Under the pieces are notes generated by a model. That model saw nothing but the letters and a program-made list of their open reading frames with translations. It ran no database searches and was not told the DNA's origin. Positions 1,191 to 42,330 of a stretch of 42,330 nt of DNA are shown one piece after another; within the stretch, counting starts at the first letter, position 1; each line of letters starts with the position of its first letter. Source of the DNA: a virus; IMG/VR virus record IMGVR_UViG_3300009168_000067, positions 1 to 42,330 of that record. One strand, written 5' to 3'. The position numbers and the translations under genes were made by a program.

Positions 1191-1230
1191 GGACATGCCT
1201 ACACGGCATTCACAACAAGGAAACAAGACA

Positions 1231-1686
1231 ATGACTGACTTTCAGCTTCCCGACCTTGAGACGGTTGACGAGCTTCCCGAGATTGCCCTTCGCGGTGGTC
1301 GTTCCAAGGGTGCGAACCCGCTGGTCGAATTCATGGCTGGCATGCAGGCTCCTGTTCCTGTCGGCACCAAGCAGGGCAAGAACACCACCACCAAGCCGCA
1401 GTACCAGAGCTTTTTCATCCCGATTGAGCCGCTGCCCGAGACACTGACGGGCGACAAGGAGCGTGCCAAGGAAGCACGCGACCGCGCCAACAAGCTGGTC
1501 AACAAGTTTGCCAGCCTCGTGCGTAGGGTGGTCAACAATGACGAGACGGACACGGTGGATTTTGCTCTGCGCAAGCAGCAGACGGACGCCAACGATCCTA
1601 CCTCGCTGGGCCTCCGGGTCTACCGCACCACCCTGACTGCCGACAAGAAGGCCAAGAAGATTGAAGCCCGTAACAAGGCCAAGTAA
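1231..1686 (+). CDS. hypothetical early protein, stand-alone unit (151 aa)
   Basis: ATG 1231 is chosen over an upstream in-frame ATG at 1195 because AAGGA at 1217-1221 precedes it and the upstream ATG lies very close to the promoter -10. The 151-aa protein has an acidic N-terminus (about 1-20), a central region, a highly charged helical stretch (about 72-100: GDKERAKEARDRANKLVNKFASLVRRVV) and a very basic Lys/Ala-rich tail (last 20 residues). The basic tail suggests nucleic-acid contact, but no family is recognised. A dedicated promoter and a strong terminator on either side suggest high expression early in infection. Confidence 0.75.
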   Translation: MTDFQLPDLETVDELPEIALRGGRSKGANPLVEFMAGMQAPVPVGTKQGKNTTTKPQYQSFFIPIEPLPETLTGDKERAKEARDRANKLVNKFASLVRRVVNNDETDTVDFALRKQQTDANDPTSLGLRVYRTTLTADKKAKKIEARNKAK

Positions 1687-1765: not shown

Positions 1766-1981
1766 ATGGCAAATGCAACGGACGTGACAGAGCTTGTTGA
1801 CACCGCTGGTTCTCAGGGCGTGCTTACGGACTTGCGACAGGCCGGCAAGATCGAACTGGTTACAGGCGCTGGCGGTGCTGTGTGGATCAACGTCGATGGC
1901 ACCATGCTGCTGCGGATCATGAAGTGCGATGTTGTGGCCGTCGATACCACTAACGCCCTTAGCACCGACCTGAGGCTCTAA
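1766..1981 (+). CDS. small hypothetical protein (71 aa)
   Basis: A perfect GGAGGA at 1754-1759 abuts an ATG at 1760. The next in-frame ATG at 1766 has the usual 6-base spacing and is therefore taken as the start. The 71-aa product has a helical N-terminus and a beta-rich centre (KIELVTGAGGAVWINVDGTMLLRI). It is not recognised. Its TAA overlaps the ATG of the large polyproline protein by one base, so the two are likely co-translated and may work together. Confidence 0.65.
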   Translation: MANATDVTELVDTAGSQGVLTDLRQAGKIELVTGAGGAVWINVDGTMLLRIMKCDVVAVDTTNALSTDLRL

Positions 1982-3225
1982 TGCTTTCAATTGCTCTTGT
2001 GACAGGGGGCAAAGAGGTAGTCCTAGACGCCCTCTATGCTGACCCCATGTGGCGACGGATGACAGCCAAGGGGCCTGTCACCGTCGCTGCGATGCTGGCG
2101 GCAAAAGCGCAAGAGCTTGCGCTAACAGACCTCAGGGGCATGCTAGGCCCAGAGCTTGAGCACACCTACAACAAGTATCTCGAAACCAATGGCGAGCGTG
2201 ATCCCAACGACGCGGGCGAATGGGACGAAGGGCTTGATGACGCCATTGCCAATGTTTTCGAGCCTTACGAGAAGTATCTATCTGCTAGCTGGATGGGCGT
2301 TCATCTCATCGATACGCGAGCGCATATCGAGGGCGAAATGGATCGGCTGGTCGATTTGTTTGGTCAAGAGGTATGGACGCAGTTGACGTATGAACGAACC
2401 AACAATCAGATATTAGCAGGCGTAGGCATTGTTGAGGCTGATCTGCTGGCACTGTGTGATGCACCACCGCCACCCCCACCGCCACCTAAGGAGTATAACT
2501 CAATGAGCGTGAATGCAGTGCTTAACATCATCATGCGGAGCTTTCCCGACATGATGCAGCTACCAGACGATCTTGACATGGTTTCGGACACTGACGATCT
2601 GCTGGCAGAAGGTGCGGCAGGCAGGCTTGGCATTCAGTGGGAGGATGTGCTGGTGCTCCGTGACGCACGGTCGCGGTCTAGTGCAGCCCTTGACGCTTGG
2701 TTCAACGCCATTGATGCTGGCATTGCGCTGGAAGAGAACAAGGTGTTTGTCGATCTAACGCCGCCGCCTGTGCCCCCGCCTCCCACAGCCGATCTTGGTC
2801 CCGATTTGCCGGCGACCTTGCGCCGATCCGCGCCACCTCCGCCGCCACCGCCTCCGCCGCCTCCTAGCGTGACCGCCAGCGCCGGCGTTCCACCTCCTCC
2901 GCCCCCACCTAGCGCGGTCAAAGGCGGAAGCTCTGGCGAGGCTCCCAGCCCACCCAACACGGGCAGGGGTGGAGCGCGGGCCAAGGCGGGCGATGCACCA
3001 CCTCCCGGCGCGATCCCGGCTGAACTGTTGCAGACGATCAAGGATCGATCTGGTATGACTGACGTGCAGATGGCCGAAGCATTGGGCATCAGCCGGCCAA
3101 CCTTTGCCAACTACCTCAAGAACAAGGGTTGGTGCGTGCCGACGCCGCAGCAGCGGTTGTTATTCAAGAACAAGATAGCTGAGACGATCAACGTACTGAC
3201 AGAGGCGCACAACGCAATCGAATGA
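1981..3225 (+). CDS. polyproline protein with C-terminal helix-turn-helix (414 aa)
   Basis: The N-terminal part (1-160) is helical and acidic with no recognised domain. It is followed by four proline tracts: 8 Pro at 162-169, PPPVPPPP at 261-268, 11 Pro at 285-295 and 7 Pro at 304-310. The C-terminus holds a helix-turn-helix, MTDVQMAEALGISRPTFANY at about 359-378, of the XRE/Cro type, where the second helix begins at SRPTF. A second in-frame start with its own ribosome site lies at 2503. I infer a DNA-binding regulator or architectural protein whose Pro-rich linkers act as spacers or partner-binding sites. Eukaryotic formin FH1 regions have a similar composition, but that similarity is not evidence of actin binding. 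Long Pro tracts normally need EF-P for translation. The overlapping flanking genes (stop/start at 1981 and 3222) place it in the early operon. Confidence 0.8.
   Translation: MLSIALVTGGKEVVLDALYADPMWRRMTAKGPVTVAAMLAAKAQELALTDLRGMLGPELEHTYNKYLETNGERDPNDAGEWDEGLDDAIANVFEPYEKYLSASWMGVHLIDTRAHIEGEMDRLVDLFGQEVWTQLTYERTNNQILAGVGIVEADLLALCDAPPPPPPPPKEYNSMSVNAVLNIIMRSFPDMMQLPDDLDMVSDTDDLLAEGAAGRLGIQWEDVLVLRDARSRSSAALDAWFNAIDAGIALEENKVFVDLTPPPVPPPPTADLGPDLPATLRRSAPPPPPPPPPPPSVTASAGVPPPPPPPSAVKGGSSGEAPSPPNTGRGGARAKAGDAPPPGAIPAELLQTIKDRSGMTDVQMAEALGISRPTFANYLKNKGWCVPTPQQRLLFKNKIAETINVLTEAHNAIE
2488..2505 (+). promoter_or_regulatory. internal ribosome-binding site and start inside the polyproline gene
   Basis: AAGGAG at 2488-2493 is followed, 9 bases on, by an in-frame ATG at 2503 (residue 175). 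The Shine-Dalgarno begins at the codon directly after the 8-Pro tract. Initiation here would give a separate 240-aa protein holding the last three proline tracts and the helix-turn-helix, without the acidic N-terminal domain. Confidence 0.6.
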
Positions 3226-6902: not shown

Positions 6903-7283
6903 ATGTCAATCTCTATTACCTTTACAGACCTCACGCCTGCGGAGGCTGTCGCCCTCTTAAACGGTGGTGCTCCTGCCACCACACAGGCCGGCACGCCAAT
7001 GGCACCGCCAACGGCCCCGCCCATGCCACAGGCACCCGCACCCGTGCCTGCGCCCACGCCAGCCCCACCGCCTGCCGCCGCTCCCGCCGCCCCGGCCGTG
7101 TCGGGCAAGCTTGGACAATGCTTGTCCACGATGGACGCCTATGTGAAGGCACGCGGTGCGACCGGCGTTGCCGATGCCAAAAAGGTTTTAGCTCAGGTGC
7201 AGCTACAGCGACCGCAGGACGCCAACGAGGCGCAGCTTGACTGGCTGATTACGGCATTCGCAAATACGCAGTGGGTTCCGTAG
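6903..7283 (+). CDS. Pro/Ala-rich linker protein (126 aa)
   Basis: ATG 6903 follows AAGGATGG. Residues 1-20 form a small start segment (ITFTDLTPAEAVALLNGG), residues 23-66 are a low-complexity Ala/Pro/Thr linker with repeated PAP and APP units, and residues about 67-126 form a compact helical domain (GQCLSTMDAYVKARGATGVADAKKVLAQVQ, then LDWLITAF). The linker is probably an extended tether. Its place between helicase and nuclease suggests an accessory replication factor. Which partner it holds is unknown. Confidence 0.7.
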   Translation: MSISITFTDLTPAEAVALLNGGAPATTQAGTPMAPPTAPPMPQAPAPVPAPTPAPPPAAAPAAPAVSGKLGQCLSTMDAYVKARGATGVADAKKVLAQVQLQRPQDANEAQLDWLITAFANTQWVP

Positions 7284-8580: not shown

Positions 8581-8780
8581 GAGAAGGACCAACACAGCTT
8601 ACTGCTTTGCTGCTTGGCAAGGCCGAAGTGGTGAGCTTGGTAATCTATGACCTTGGTCATATGCTTATGTCTGTAAACATATCAGACGAAGCATTTACCA
8701 AGGCTGTGCGTGGCTTGGTGGAACAGGCTAAAGCCTTTCCCGAAAGCTCGCTAAACTCCATCAAGGTAGGAGACGAGTGA
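8577..8780 (+). CDS. small hypothetical protein (67 aa)
   Basis: ATG 8577 overlaps the TGA of the nuclease gene (ATGA). The 67-aa product is helical, with a hydrophobic middle (LLLGKAEVVSLVIYDLGHMLMSV) that is too polar for a membrane span and a C-terminal helix (FTKAVRGLVEQAKAFP). It is unrecognised. It is wedged between the Cas4-like nuclease and the single-strand DNA-binding protein and could be a small cofactor of either. Confidence 0.6.
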   Translation: MREGPTQLTALLLGKAEVVSLVIYDLGHMLMSVNISDEAFTKAVRGLVEQAKAFPESSLNSIKVGDE

Positions 8781-9679
8781 TGACAACAACGATCATGCGT
8801 AACTCAACGGTTGGTGATGATTGGATTAGGCAGATTTGCGCTGCCAACCCGACCACCATCATGCCCAAGAGCAAGCCAGACGATCCGCGCCTGATCCAGA
8901 CGGGTCCATGCCGGCTGGCGTTCCCCGTGTTGTGGGAGCCAAAGGCACCCTACTCGCGCAAGGATGATCCGACTGCCAAGCCGGTGTATTCGGTCACGGC
9001 TCTGTATACGCCGTATACAGATAAGAACGTCTTTTATGGCGAGTATTACACCCGTGCCGGCGAGACGTTCAGCGACCACTATAACCCTCAGACACAGCAA
9101 TACTATGGACTTGAAAACCCGTTTCATGACGGTGCGGACAAGTCGATGAAGTTTGAGGGTTACACTGCCGGCCTGATGTATATGAACCATAGCAGCCAAT
9201 TCAAGCCGACACTGGTCACAAGCCAGCCTGACGGCAAGGGTGGTTATGTGCCGGTCACGCGAGAGGAACAGATTTACCCCGGCGTGTGGGCGATCTTGGT
9301 GCTCAACACCTACCCCTACGGCAAGACACCACCAAGGCCGAAGAAGGGTGTTGGCTTTGGCATTTCTGCCGTGATGATTATTGGTGACGACTACAACCTG
9401 TCGGGCGGCTCCATCGACGCGGCGCGAGCGTTTGCCGGCGTCAAGGTCGCCCCGCCGACGATCAACCCGGCCGCTCTGGCCGGCATGGTCCCACCGCCCT
9501 CAGGAGGCGTGCCCGGAGGGCAAACGATGCCTCCCCTTGGTATGGCACCCGGCTACCAGTTTGCGCCGCCTGCGGGGTCCGCAGGGGCCTTCGTGCCGCC
9601 ACCCCCGCCCGTGCCGATGGCGCACGGCATGGGAGGCACCATGCCTGCTGATGACGATAGGTCTAGCATAGGACTGTAA
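8780..9679 (+). CDS. single-stranded DNA-binding protein (DUF2815, gp2.5-like)
   Basis: This 299-aa protein has a DUF2815 OB-fold region at about 35-215 (RLAFPVLWEPKAPYS, then KPVYSVTALYTP and GVWAILVLNTYPYG), the family of phage single-strand binding proteins related to T7 gp2.5. The family coats ssDNA and contacts polymerase and helicase. Residues 230-285 are a Pro/Gly/Met-rich linker (many PPP and GGxP steps) that ends in an acidic tip, ADDDRSSIGL, the usual partner-docking tail of SSBs. ATG 8780 with GGAG 8 bases upstream is chosen over GTG 8777. The position between nuclease and polymerase fits. Confidence 0.85.
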   Translation: MTTTIMRNSTVGDDWIRQICAANPTTIMPKSKPDDPRLIQTGPCRLAFPVLWEPKAPYSRKDDPTAKPVYSVTALYTPYTDKNVFYGEYYTRAGETFSDHYNPQTQQYYGLENPFHDGADKSMKFEGYTAGLMYMNHSSQFKPTLVTSQPDGKGGYVPVTREEQIYPGVWAILVLNTYPYGKTPPRPKKGVGFGISAVMIIGDDYNLSGGSIDAARAFAGVKVAPPTINPAALAGMVPPPSGGVPGGQTMPPLGMAPGYQFAPPAGSAGAFVPPPPPVPMAHGMGGTMPADDDRSSIGL

Positions 9680-41700: not shown

Positions 41701-42330
41701 TCACATGATGGCCTGAGAGTACCCGTCCCGCCTGATCTGGTCAATCGGTGAAGCCGCAGGGTCGAATTCGTCGTATTGGACGCTTGCTTGCTCGCGGATC
41801 GCCCGGTTGTAGAGCGCGTTGTCCCTACGAAGCACTTTTACGCCAAAAGACAGCACGAATGCGTCGGCACGATCCGGTGAATGCTCCTGCGTCCGTTCCT
41901 TATACAATTCCTTGCTTTCGATGCGTAGCTTCCCCGAAAGCTTATCATAACCAAACAAAATGCCAGTTAGCTGCTTATGGAATTCGGGATCGTCGTCAAG
42001 GCAACCGCCGTCAATCACCCAGTCGCGAGCCAAAGCCCATATTTCGTCGCGTTTACGGTAGAAATGCCCCTGATCTGCCGCCAGAGCACCCGGCCAGAAT
42101 TCCACCACCTTCAGATGCTTAATCTCCCGACAAATGTCGATAATGCCCTCGCCGCCACCCGGTGCTTCGATAATTATGGCATCTGGACGGTATTTATGGG
42201 CCATATCGGCAATTACGTCGGCTAATTTGACGTTTGAGAGGCCCTTAAACACCATTCTTGGCCTTGACCGTGCATCTTTGCCTTGTCTGAACGCAATTAC
42301 GGCCTCGTCCACTCCAAACCGGGCGCAATC
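41701..42330 (-). CDS. terminase large subunit, C-terminal nuclease domain (partial)
   Basis: The frame is open to the window edge, so the 5' part with the ATPase is missing. The visible 209 residues start at DCARFGVDEAVIAF, the first acidic motif of the RNase H-fold nuclease, followed by DAIIIEAPGGGEGI (second motif) and SPDRADAFVLSFG (third motif, Asp). This domain cuts concatemeric DNA during packaging. A GTG at 42312 is not the start, because it would remove the first catalytic Asp. TerL is the first gene of the visible late operon. The small terminase subunit is not in this window and probably lies beyond the edge. Confidence 0.9.
   Translation of the reverse strand, partial: DCARFGVDEAVIAFRQGKDARSRPRMVFKGLSNVKLADVIADMAHKYRPDAIIIEAPGGGEGIIDICREIKHLKVVEFWPGALAADQGHFYRKRDEIWALARDWVIDGGCLDDDPEFHKQLTGILFGYDKLSGKLRIESKELYKERTQEHSPDRADAFVLSFGVKVLRRDNALYNRAIREQASVQYDEFDPAASPIDQIRRDGYSQAIM

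Follow-up and report, generated by a model that had tools for sequence, protein, structure and literature searches.

In the genome fragment analysed here, an internal start is conserved across a divergent protein family and the gene at positions 1981-3225 therefore very probably makes two proteins, a 44-kDa form and a 25-kDa form that lacks the N-terminal domain. The fragment, referred to below as the window, is the whole linear IMG/VR record IMGVR_UViG_3300009168_000067 (42,330 bp). Standard gene callers would report one protein at this position, whereas comparative evidence points to two. The features of the locus are as follows.

1195..1686, plus strand: gene for a basic protein, upstream; the companion gene of the locus, present in 25 of the 25 loci compared
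1981..3225, plus strand: full-length open reading frame, a single ORF of 414 aa (44.3 kDa)
1981..2460, plus strand: predicted N-terminal domain, all-helical and acidic (residues 1-160; AF2 pLDDT mostly >90)
2464..2487, plus strand: 8-Pro tract in linker 1 (residues 162-169)
2488..2493, plus strand: internal Shine-Dalgarno (SD) sequence AAGGAG, with a spacing of 9 nt to ATG 2503
2500..2730, plus strand: predicted middle domain of five helices (residues 174-250; AF2), starting at the internal Met
2503..3225, plus strand: candidate short product from the internal in-frame ATG 2503 (Met175), 240 aa (25.1 kDa), with the middle domain, the Pro-rich linker and the helix-turn-helix (HTH)
2761..2910, plus strand: predicted disordered Pro-rich linker 2, with the tracts PPPVPPPP, P11 and P7
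3010..3222, plus strand: predicted XRE-like HTH plus a long C-terminal helix (residues 344-414; PF20432)

Gene layout and predicted domains

The gene begins at ATG 1981, which overlaps the stop codon of an upstream 73-aa gene (TAATG). An earlier reading of the sequence alone (hereafter the sequence-only reading) had described it as an ORF with four proline tracts, the longest of 11 residues, and an XRE-type HTH, and both the sequence and the PF20432 match bear this out; the tracts are a run of eight (residues 162-169), PPPVPPPP (261-268), a run of 11 (285-295) and a run of seven (304-310). The AAGGAG and the in-frame ATG at 2503, from which a second product of 240 aa had been proposed, are also laid out as described. 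However, this ATG does not follow directly on the 8-Pro tract, as had been stated, but is the sixth codon beyond it: the five codons for K-E-Y-N-S intervene and separate it by 15 nt from the end of the tract. The window alone does not establish an internal start at 2503, because six of the 294 internal ATGs in its 25 genes reach SD energies of -8.5 kcal/mol or lower.

An AF2 model computed with 26 sequences contains confident folds at residues 1-160, 174-250 and 344-413, with low confidence for linker 1 (around residues 161-173) and linker 2 (about 257-343). Structure prediction was among the checks suggested by the sequence-only reading, and AF2 does start a second folded domain at residue 174; in a second run limited to residues 1-252 (mean pLDDT of 91.8) the first helix of this domain again starts at that residue. 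In these models, the short product corresponds to the complete middle domain plus the HTH. The N-terminal domain carries a net charge of between -7 and -20 in all 26 homologs. Foldseek searches with the N-terminal and middle domains gave no significant match, the helical hits being meaningless.

The HTH (residues 344-380) scores 26.1 bits against PF20432, above the curated cut-off of 25.8 bits, and 17 of the 26 family members match the same profile. A Foldseek search aligned it with XRE-fold DNA-binding proteins with a probability of 1.00, though with E > 0.1. Profile and model suggest that the C-terminal HTH resembles those of XRE-type regulators, with DNA binding as its putative function. 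Like XRE/Cro-C1-type HTH proteins (PF20432, PF01381), the protein has at its C-terminus an HTH whose size and fold agree with theirs; unlike them, it also contains a long disordered linker and two helical domains for which no match was found.

Conservation of the internal start

Homologs were collected by profile scans seeded first by the neighbouring helicase gene and then by the family itself. Including the window's own protein, the scans recovered 28 distinct homologs, every one in a viral contig of IMG/VR; 26 were analysed in full, and L064 and L067 are later additions. No match to the window protein or to distant family members was found among GenBank phages, and no relative was obtained from a single-sequence scan of IMG/VR with the window protein or from a search of GTDB genomes with a four-member profile. 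Searches of Pfam, PHROG and the PDB likewise gave no relative of the family outside the HTH. Sequence identity to the window protein is approximately 21-46% for the 25 homologs aligned with it, and the homologs form several deep, well supported clades; they are not independent observations, and close pairs were removed only in the SD recoding test described below.

An ATG is present in the variable linker between the N-terminal and middle domains in 24 of the 26 homologs, and in 23 of them an ATG whose SD is at or below -5.5 kcal/mol falls within a single 11-column window of this linker. When the whole alignment is scanned in the same way, the annotated start reaches 18 of 26 and the next-best internal position five of 26; any tendency of the alignment program (MAFFT) to place Met residues together would apply equally to every other stretch. 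The second linker is equally variable and, like all other stretches of the 26-homolog alignment, shows no such conserved SD/ATG. Elsewhere in these genes, SD sequences of this strength accompany 8.4% of 215 other internal ATGs (Mann-Whitney p = 1e-12). For L002, a second upstream ATG was used in this last comparison and the aligned ATG in the recoding, mRNA-structure and codon-phase tests.

With the later homologs included, 24 of 28 possess both SD and ATG at the site; the distant homolog L064 has the ATG there with a weaker-looking SD. The internal site is thus not essential everywhere, since four of the 28 (L031, L047, L046 and L067) are without it. As L031 and L047 are sisters among these four, loss of the internal SD/ATG, or its replacement by a separate source of the short form, has probably happened more than once.

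The SD sequences are stronger than expected from the residues that they encode. Synonymous recoding of the same residues with the codon usage of each locus gave a z score of -4.4 for the observed SD, or -3.6 when one member per close cluster was kept. The SD core occurs in all three codon phases (16/6/1) and its residues vary accordingly (K-E, Q-E, V-E, T-E, G-E, G-D, E-D, K-G or R-K), while its spacing to the ATG is nearly constant, at 5-9 nt in nearly all homologs; in L015 the core chosen by the script is just 3 nt from the ATG and an upstream GGAG (CCG GAG) gives a longer spacing. Because codon phase and amino acids change while the spacing is maintained, selection appears to act on the nucleotides. 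The residue directly after the internal Met is Ala, Ser or Thr in 17 of 24 cases, against 22% for other Met residues. The 50-nt mRNA window at the site lies near the gene-wide minimum of structure (mean rank of 0.10, p = 3e-11), with the clearest exceptions in the gene analysed here (0.36, a modest dip), L026 (0.62) and L047 (0.52), the last being without the SD. The statistics are weak for each homolog taken singly and the support is comparative; taken across the family, these patterns support an internal initiation site under nucleotide-level selection.

No conserved open alternative frame that would indicate a frameshift or overlapping-frame product was found at the site. A separate internal promoter is not indicated either: the sole σ70-like match near the gene lies on the minus strand at 1174-1201 and is no more than expected by chance.

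Alternative explanations

The sequence-only reading had explained the arrangement by ribosome pausing on the eight prolines, which EF-P would relieve and which would gate the internal start so that the ratio of the two isoforms reports on translation state. Long Pro runs do stall ribosomes in the absence of EF-P (for example, PMC11611912), and the tract lies close upstream of the internal ATG. However, a Pro tract stands beside the start in only one of 26 homologs, that of the window; the other 25 have no run of at least four Pro residues before the internal start and nevertheless keep that start. The mechanism that the family conserves is thus not pausing at this tract, and a ribosome paused there would cover the SD and ATG and so be more likely to block initiation than to expose the site. 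We consider gating of this kind very unlikely, and give equally little weight to a form of it confined to the window's lineage, in which the new tract would create an EF-P-sensitive switch, with paused ribosomes blocking the internal start and the short form falling when translation is slow. The tract is probably a lineage-specific embellishment of the linker and not part of the mechanism. A double Pro tract before the HTH is kept only in the seven-member clade of the window and falls in both products. Of the earlier proposal, the two products are strongly favoured by conservation of the start across the divergent family, while the role given to the tract finds no support. The proposal had looked to homologs for conservation of both elements and would have been given up on the loss of both; the relatives have lost the tract and retained the internal site.

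The SD-like element lies exactly at the AF2 domain boundary and might act as an elongation pause that aids co-translational folding, with no internal initiation. This is improbable, as a pause would not call for the in-frame ATG, spaced as at a start, that 24 of 26 homologs have, and predicts neither the preference for Ala, Ser or Thr after the Met nor the dip in mRNA structure. The same domain layout suggests two modules joined at an old start and could be the relic of a two-gene fusion, the start of the second gene surviving without function. A non-functional SD/ATG would have decayed over the 21-46% identity spanned by the family, whereas this one is better kept than the true start; furthermore, no split-gene relative was found, L064 and L067 being single ORFs and L069 matching weakly, and we regard a mere relic as highly improbable. 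Composition deserves consideration, since a linker rich in Lys, Glu, Gln and Gly yields SD-like codons and the score expected from its residues is indeed raised (a mean of about -4.3 after recoding). The observed SD sequences nevertheless exceed this same-residue null and no other stretch of the alignment, the second linker included, has a comparable site, leaving chance an extremely unlikely source of the pattern.

Proposed function, parallels and genomic context

Independent initiation at 1981 and 2503, together with a role for the isoform ratio, is the likely overall explanation. Initiation at ATG 1981 would give a protein of three modules: the acidic helical N-terminal domain, the middle domain, and the XRE-like HTH at the end of a flexible linker. 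From ATG 2503, which lies in linker 1 between the first two modules, independent initiation would give the 240-aa form without the N-terminal domain. Both forms would accumulate. The middle domain and/or the HTH would mediate oligomerization and DNA binding, and the short form may then either compete with the full-length protein for the same DNA sites or co-assemble with it, such that the isoform ratio would set the number of DNA-bound complexes carrying the N-terminal domain. By analogy with the systems discussed below, competition or autoregulation between the isoforms is a plausible but tentative proposal, which we place slightly ahead of co-assembly because the short form would keep the DNA-binding domain; co-assembly is only a little less likely and it too has precedents, in gp1/gp11 of M13 (PMC5408679) and Cas8b/Cas11b (PMC11899642).

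Nested genes with internal starts are already known, and the family described here is without known relatives outside the HTH. It has in common with such genes an in-frame SD and start, conservation of the site and a short product made up of complete predicted domains. In plasmid pIGRK, the repR locus similarly yields two products in the same frame, a DNA-binding protein and a version of it that begins at an internal start and so lacks the N-terminus, and it also lies near replication functions; experiments showed that RepR and RepR' dimerize, have opposing effects on replication and autoregulate (PMC6854812). RepR is, however, a Rep initiator of an unrelated family, and such isoform effects are only proposed for the present gene. 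Gene I of filamentous phage (M13) also has a conserved in-frame internal start and an N-terminally truncated product (gp1/gp11), but encodes a membrane assembly ATPase with no sequence or fold relation found to the present protein (PMC5408679). In Cas8 and Cas10 an internal start likewise frees a C-terminal helical module, Cas11, extra copies of which co-assemble with the long form; unlike the present protein, these are CRISPR effector subunits without a DNA-binding HTH, and their short form occupies the last third of the gene (PMC11899642).

The most likely role of the gene is to regulate early genes or replication, given its position within a conserved early/DNA-metabolism block. Downstream, across 25 loci, the block includes an HTH-like protein (24 loci), a protein of ∼109 aa (23), a RuvC-like resolvase (23) and an SNF2 helicase (21), together with small Cys-rich/Zn-ribbon-like genes. 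Xre-type antitoxins are accompanied by an adjacent toxin gene; in the general annotation of the conserved neighbours here, no toxin match was seen. The homologs of the upstream basic protein are 120-180 aa in length with a net charge of +3 to +20, and some, such as those of L018 and L019, have a histone-like Lys/Ala-rich N-terminal tail. PHROG 7597 (unknown function) was matched by five of the 12 that were scanned, and no match to this partner was found among GenBank phages. It is tempting to speculate that the acidic N-terminal domain may contact this conserved basic neighbour.

As a candidate for the tuning of DNA-binding isoforms by a phage through internal initiation, the locus is open to direct test. 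More dual-start genes in metagenomic phages could be found with the comparison applied here, which looks for an SD that is maintained within a variable linker while its codon phase shifts.

The gene set of the window is annotated as podovirus-like. Genes for a head-tail adaptor, the major head protein and tail proteins are on the minus strand, and those for an SNF2-type helicase, a Holliday-junction resolvase, exonuclease-type and ssDNA-binding proteins, a DNA polymerase and a primase/helicase are on the plus strand. The record is probably incomplete at its right end, since the terminase large subunit there (41701-42312) matches only part of its profile. The left end may also be truncated; a metallopeptidase/VWA-like gene lies upstream of the region in L002 (2-1159) and L004 (181-915), judged by eye only, and no counterpart was seen in the window.

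Pro-rich linkers are frequent in the DNA-metabolism proteins of this phage group. A small protein beside the helicase (6903-7283), with homologs in L002, L003, L004, L010 and L019, has a long Pro/Ala-rich central linker. An ssDNA-binding/annealing-type gene (8777-9679) encodes a Pro/Gly-rich tail and contains two internal ATGs (codons 251 and 289) whose SD-like sequences are very strong, at -10.0 and -9.6 kcal/mol, and probably stem from GGAGG-like Gly/Pro codons.
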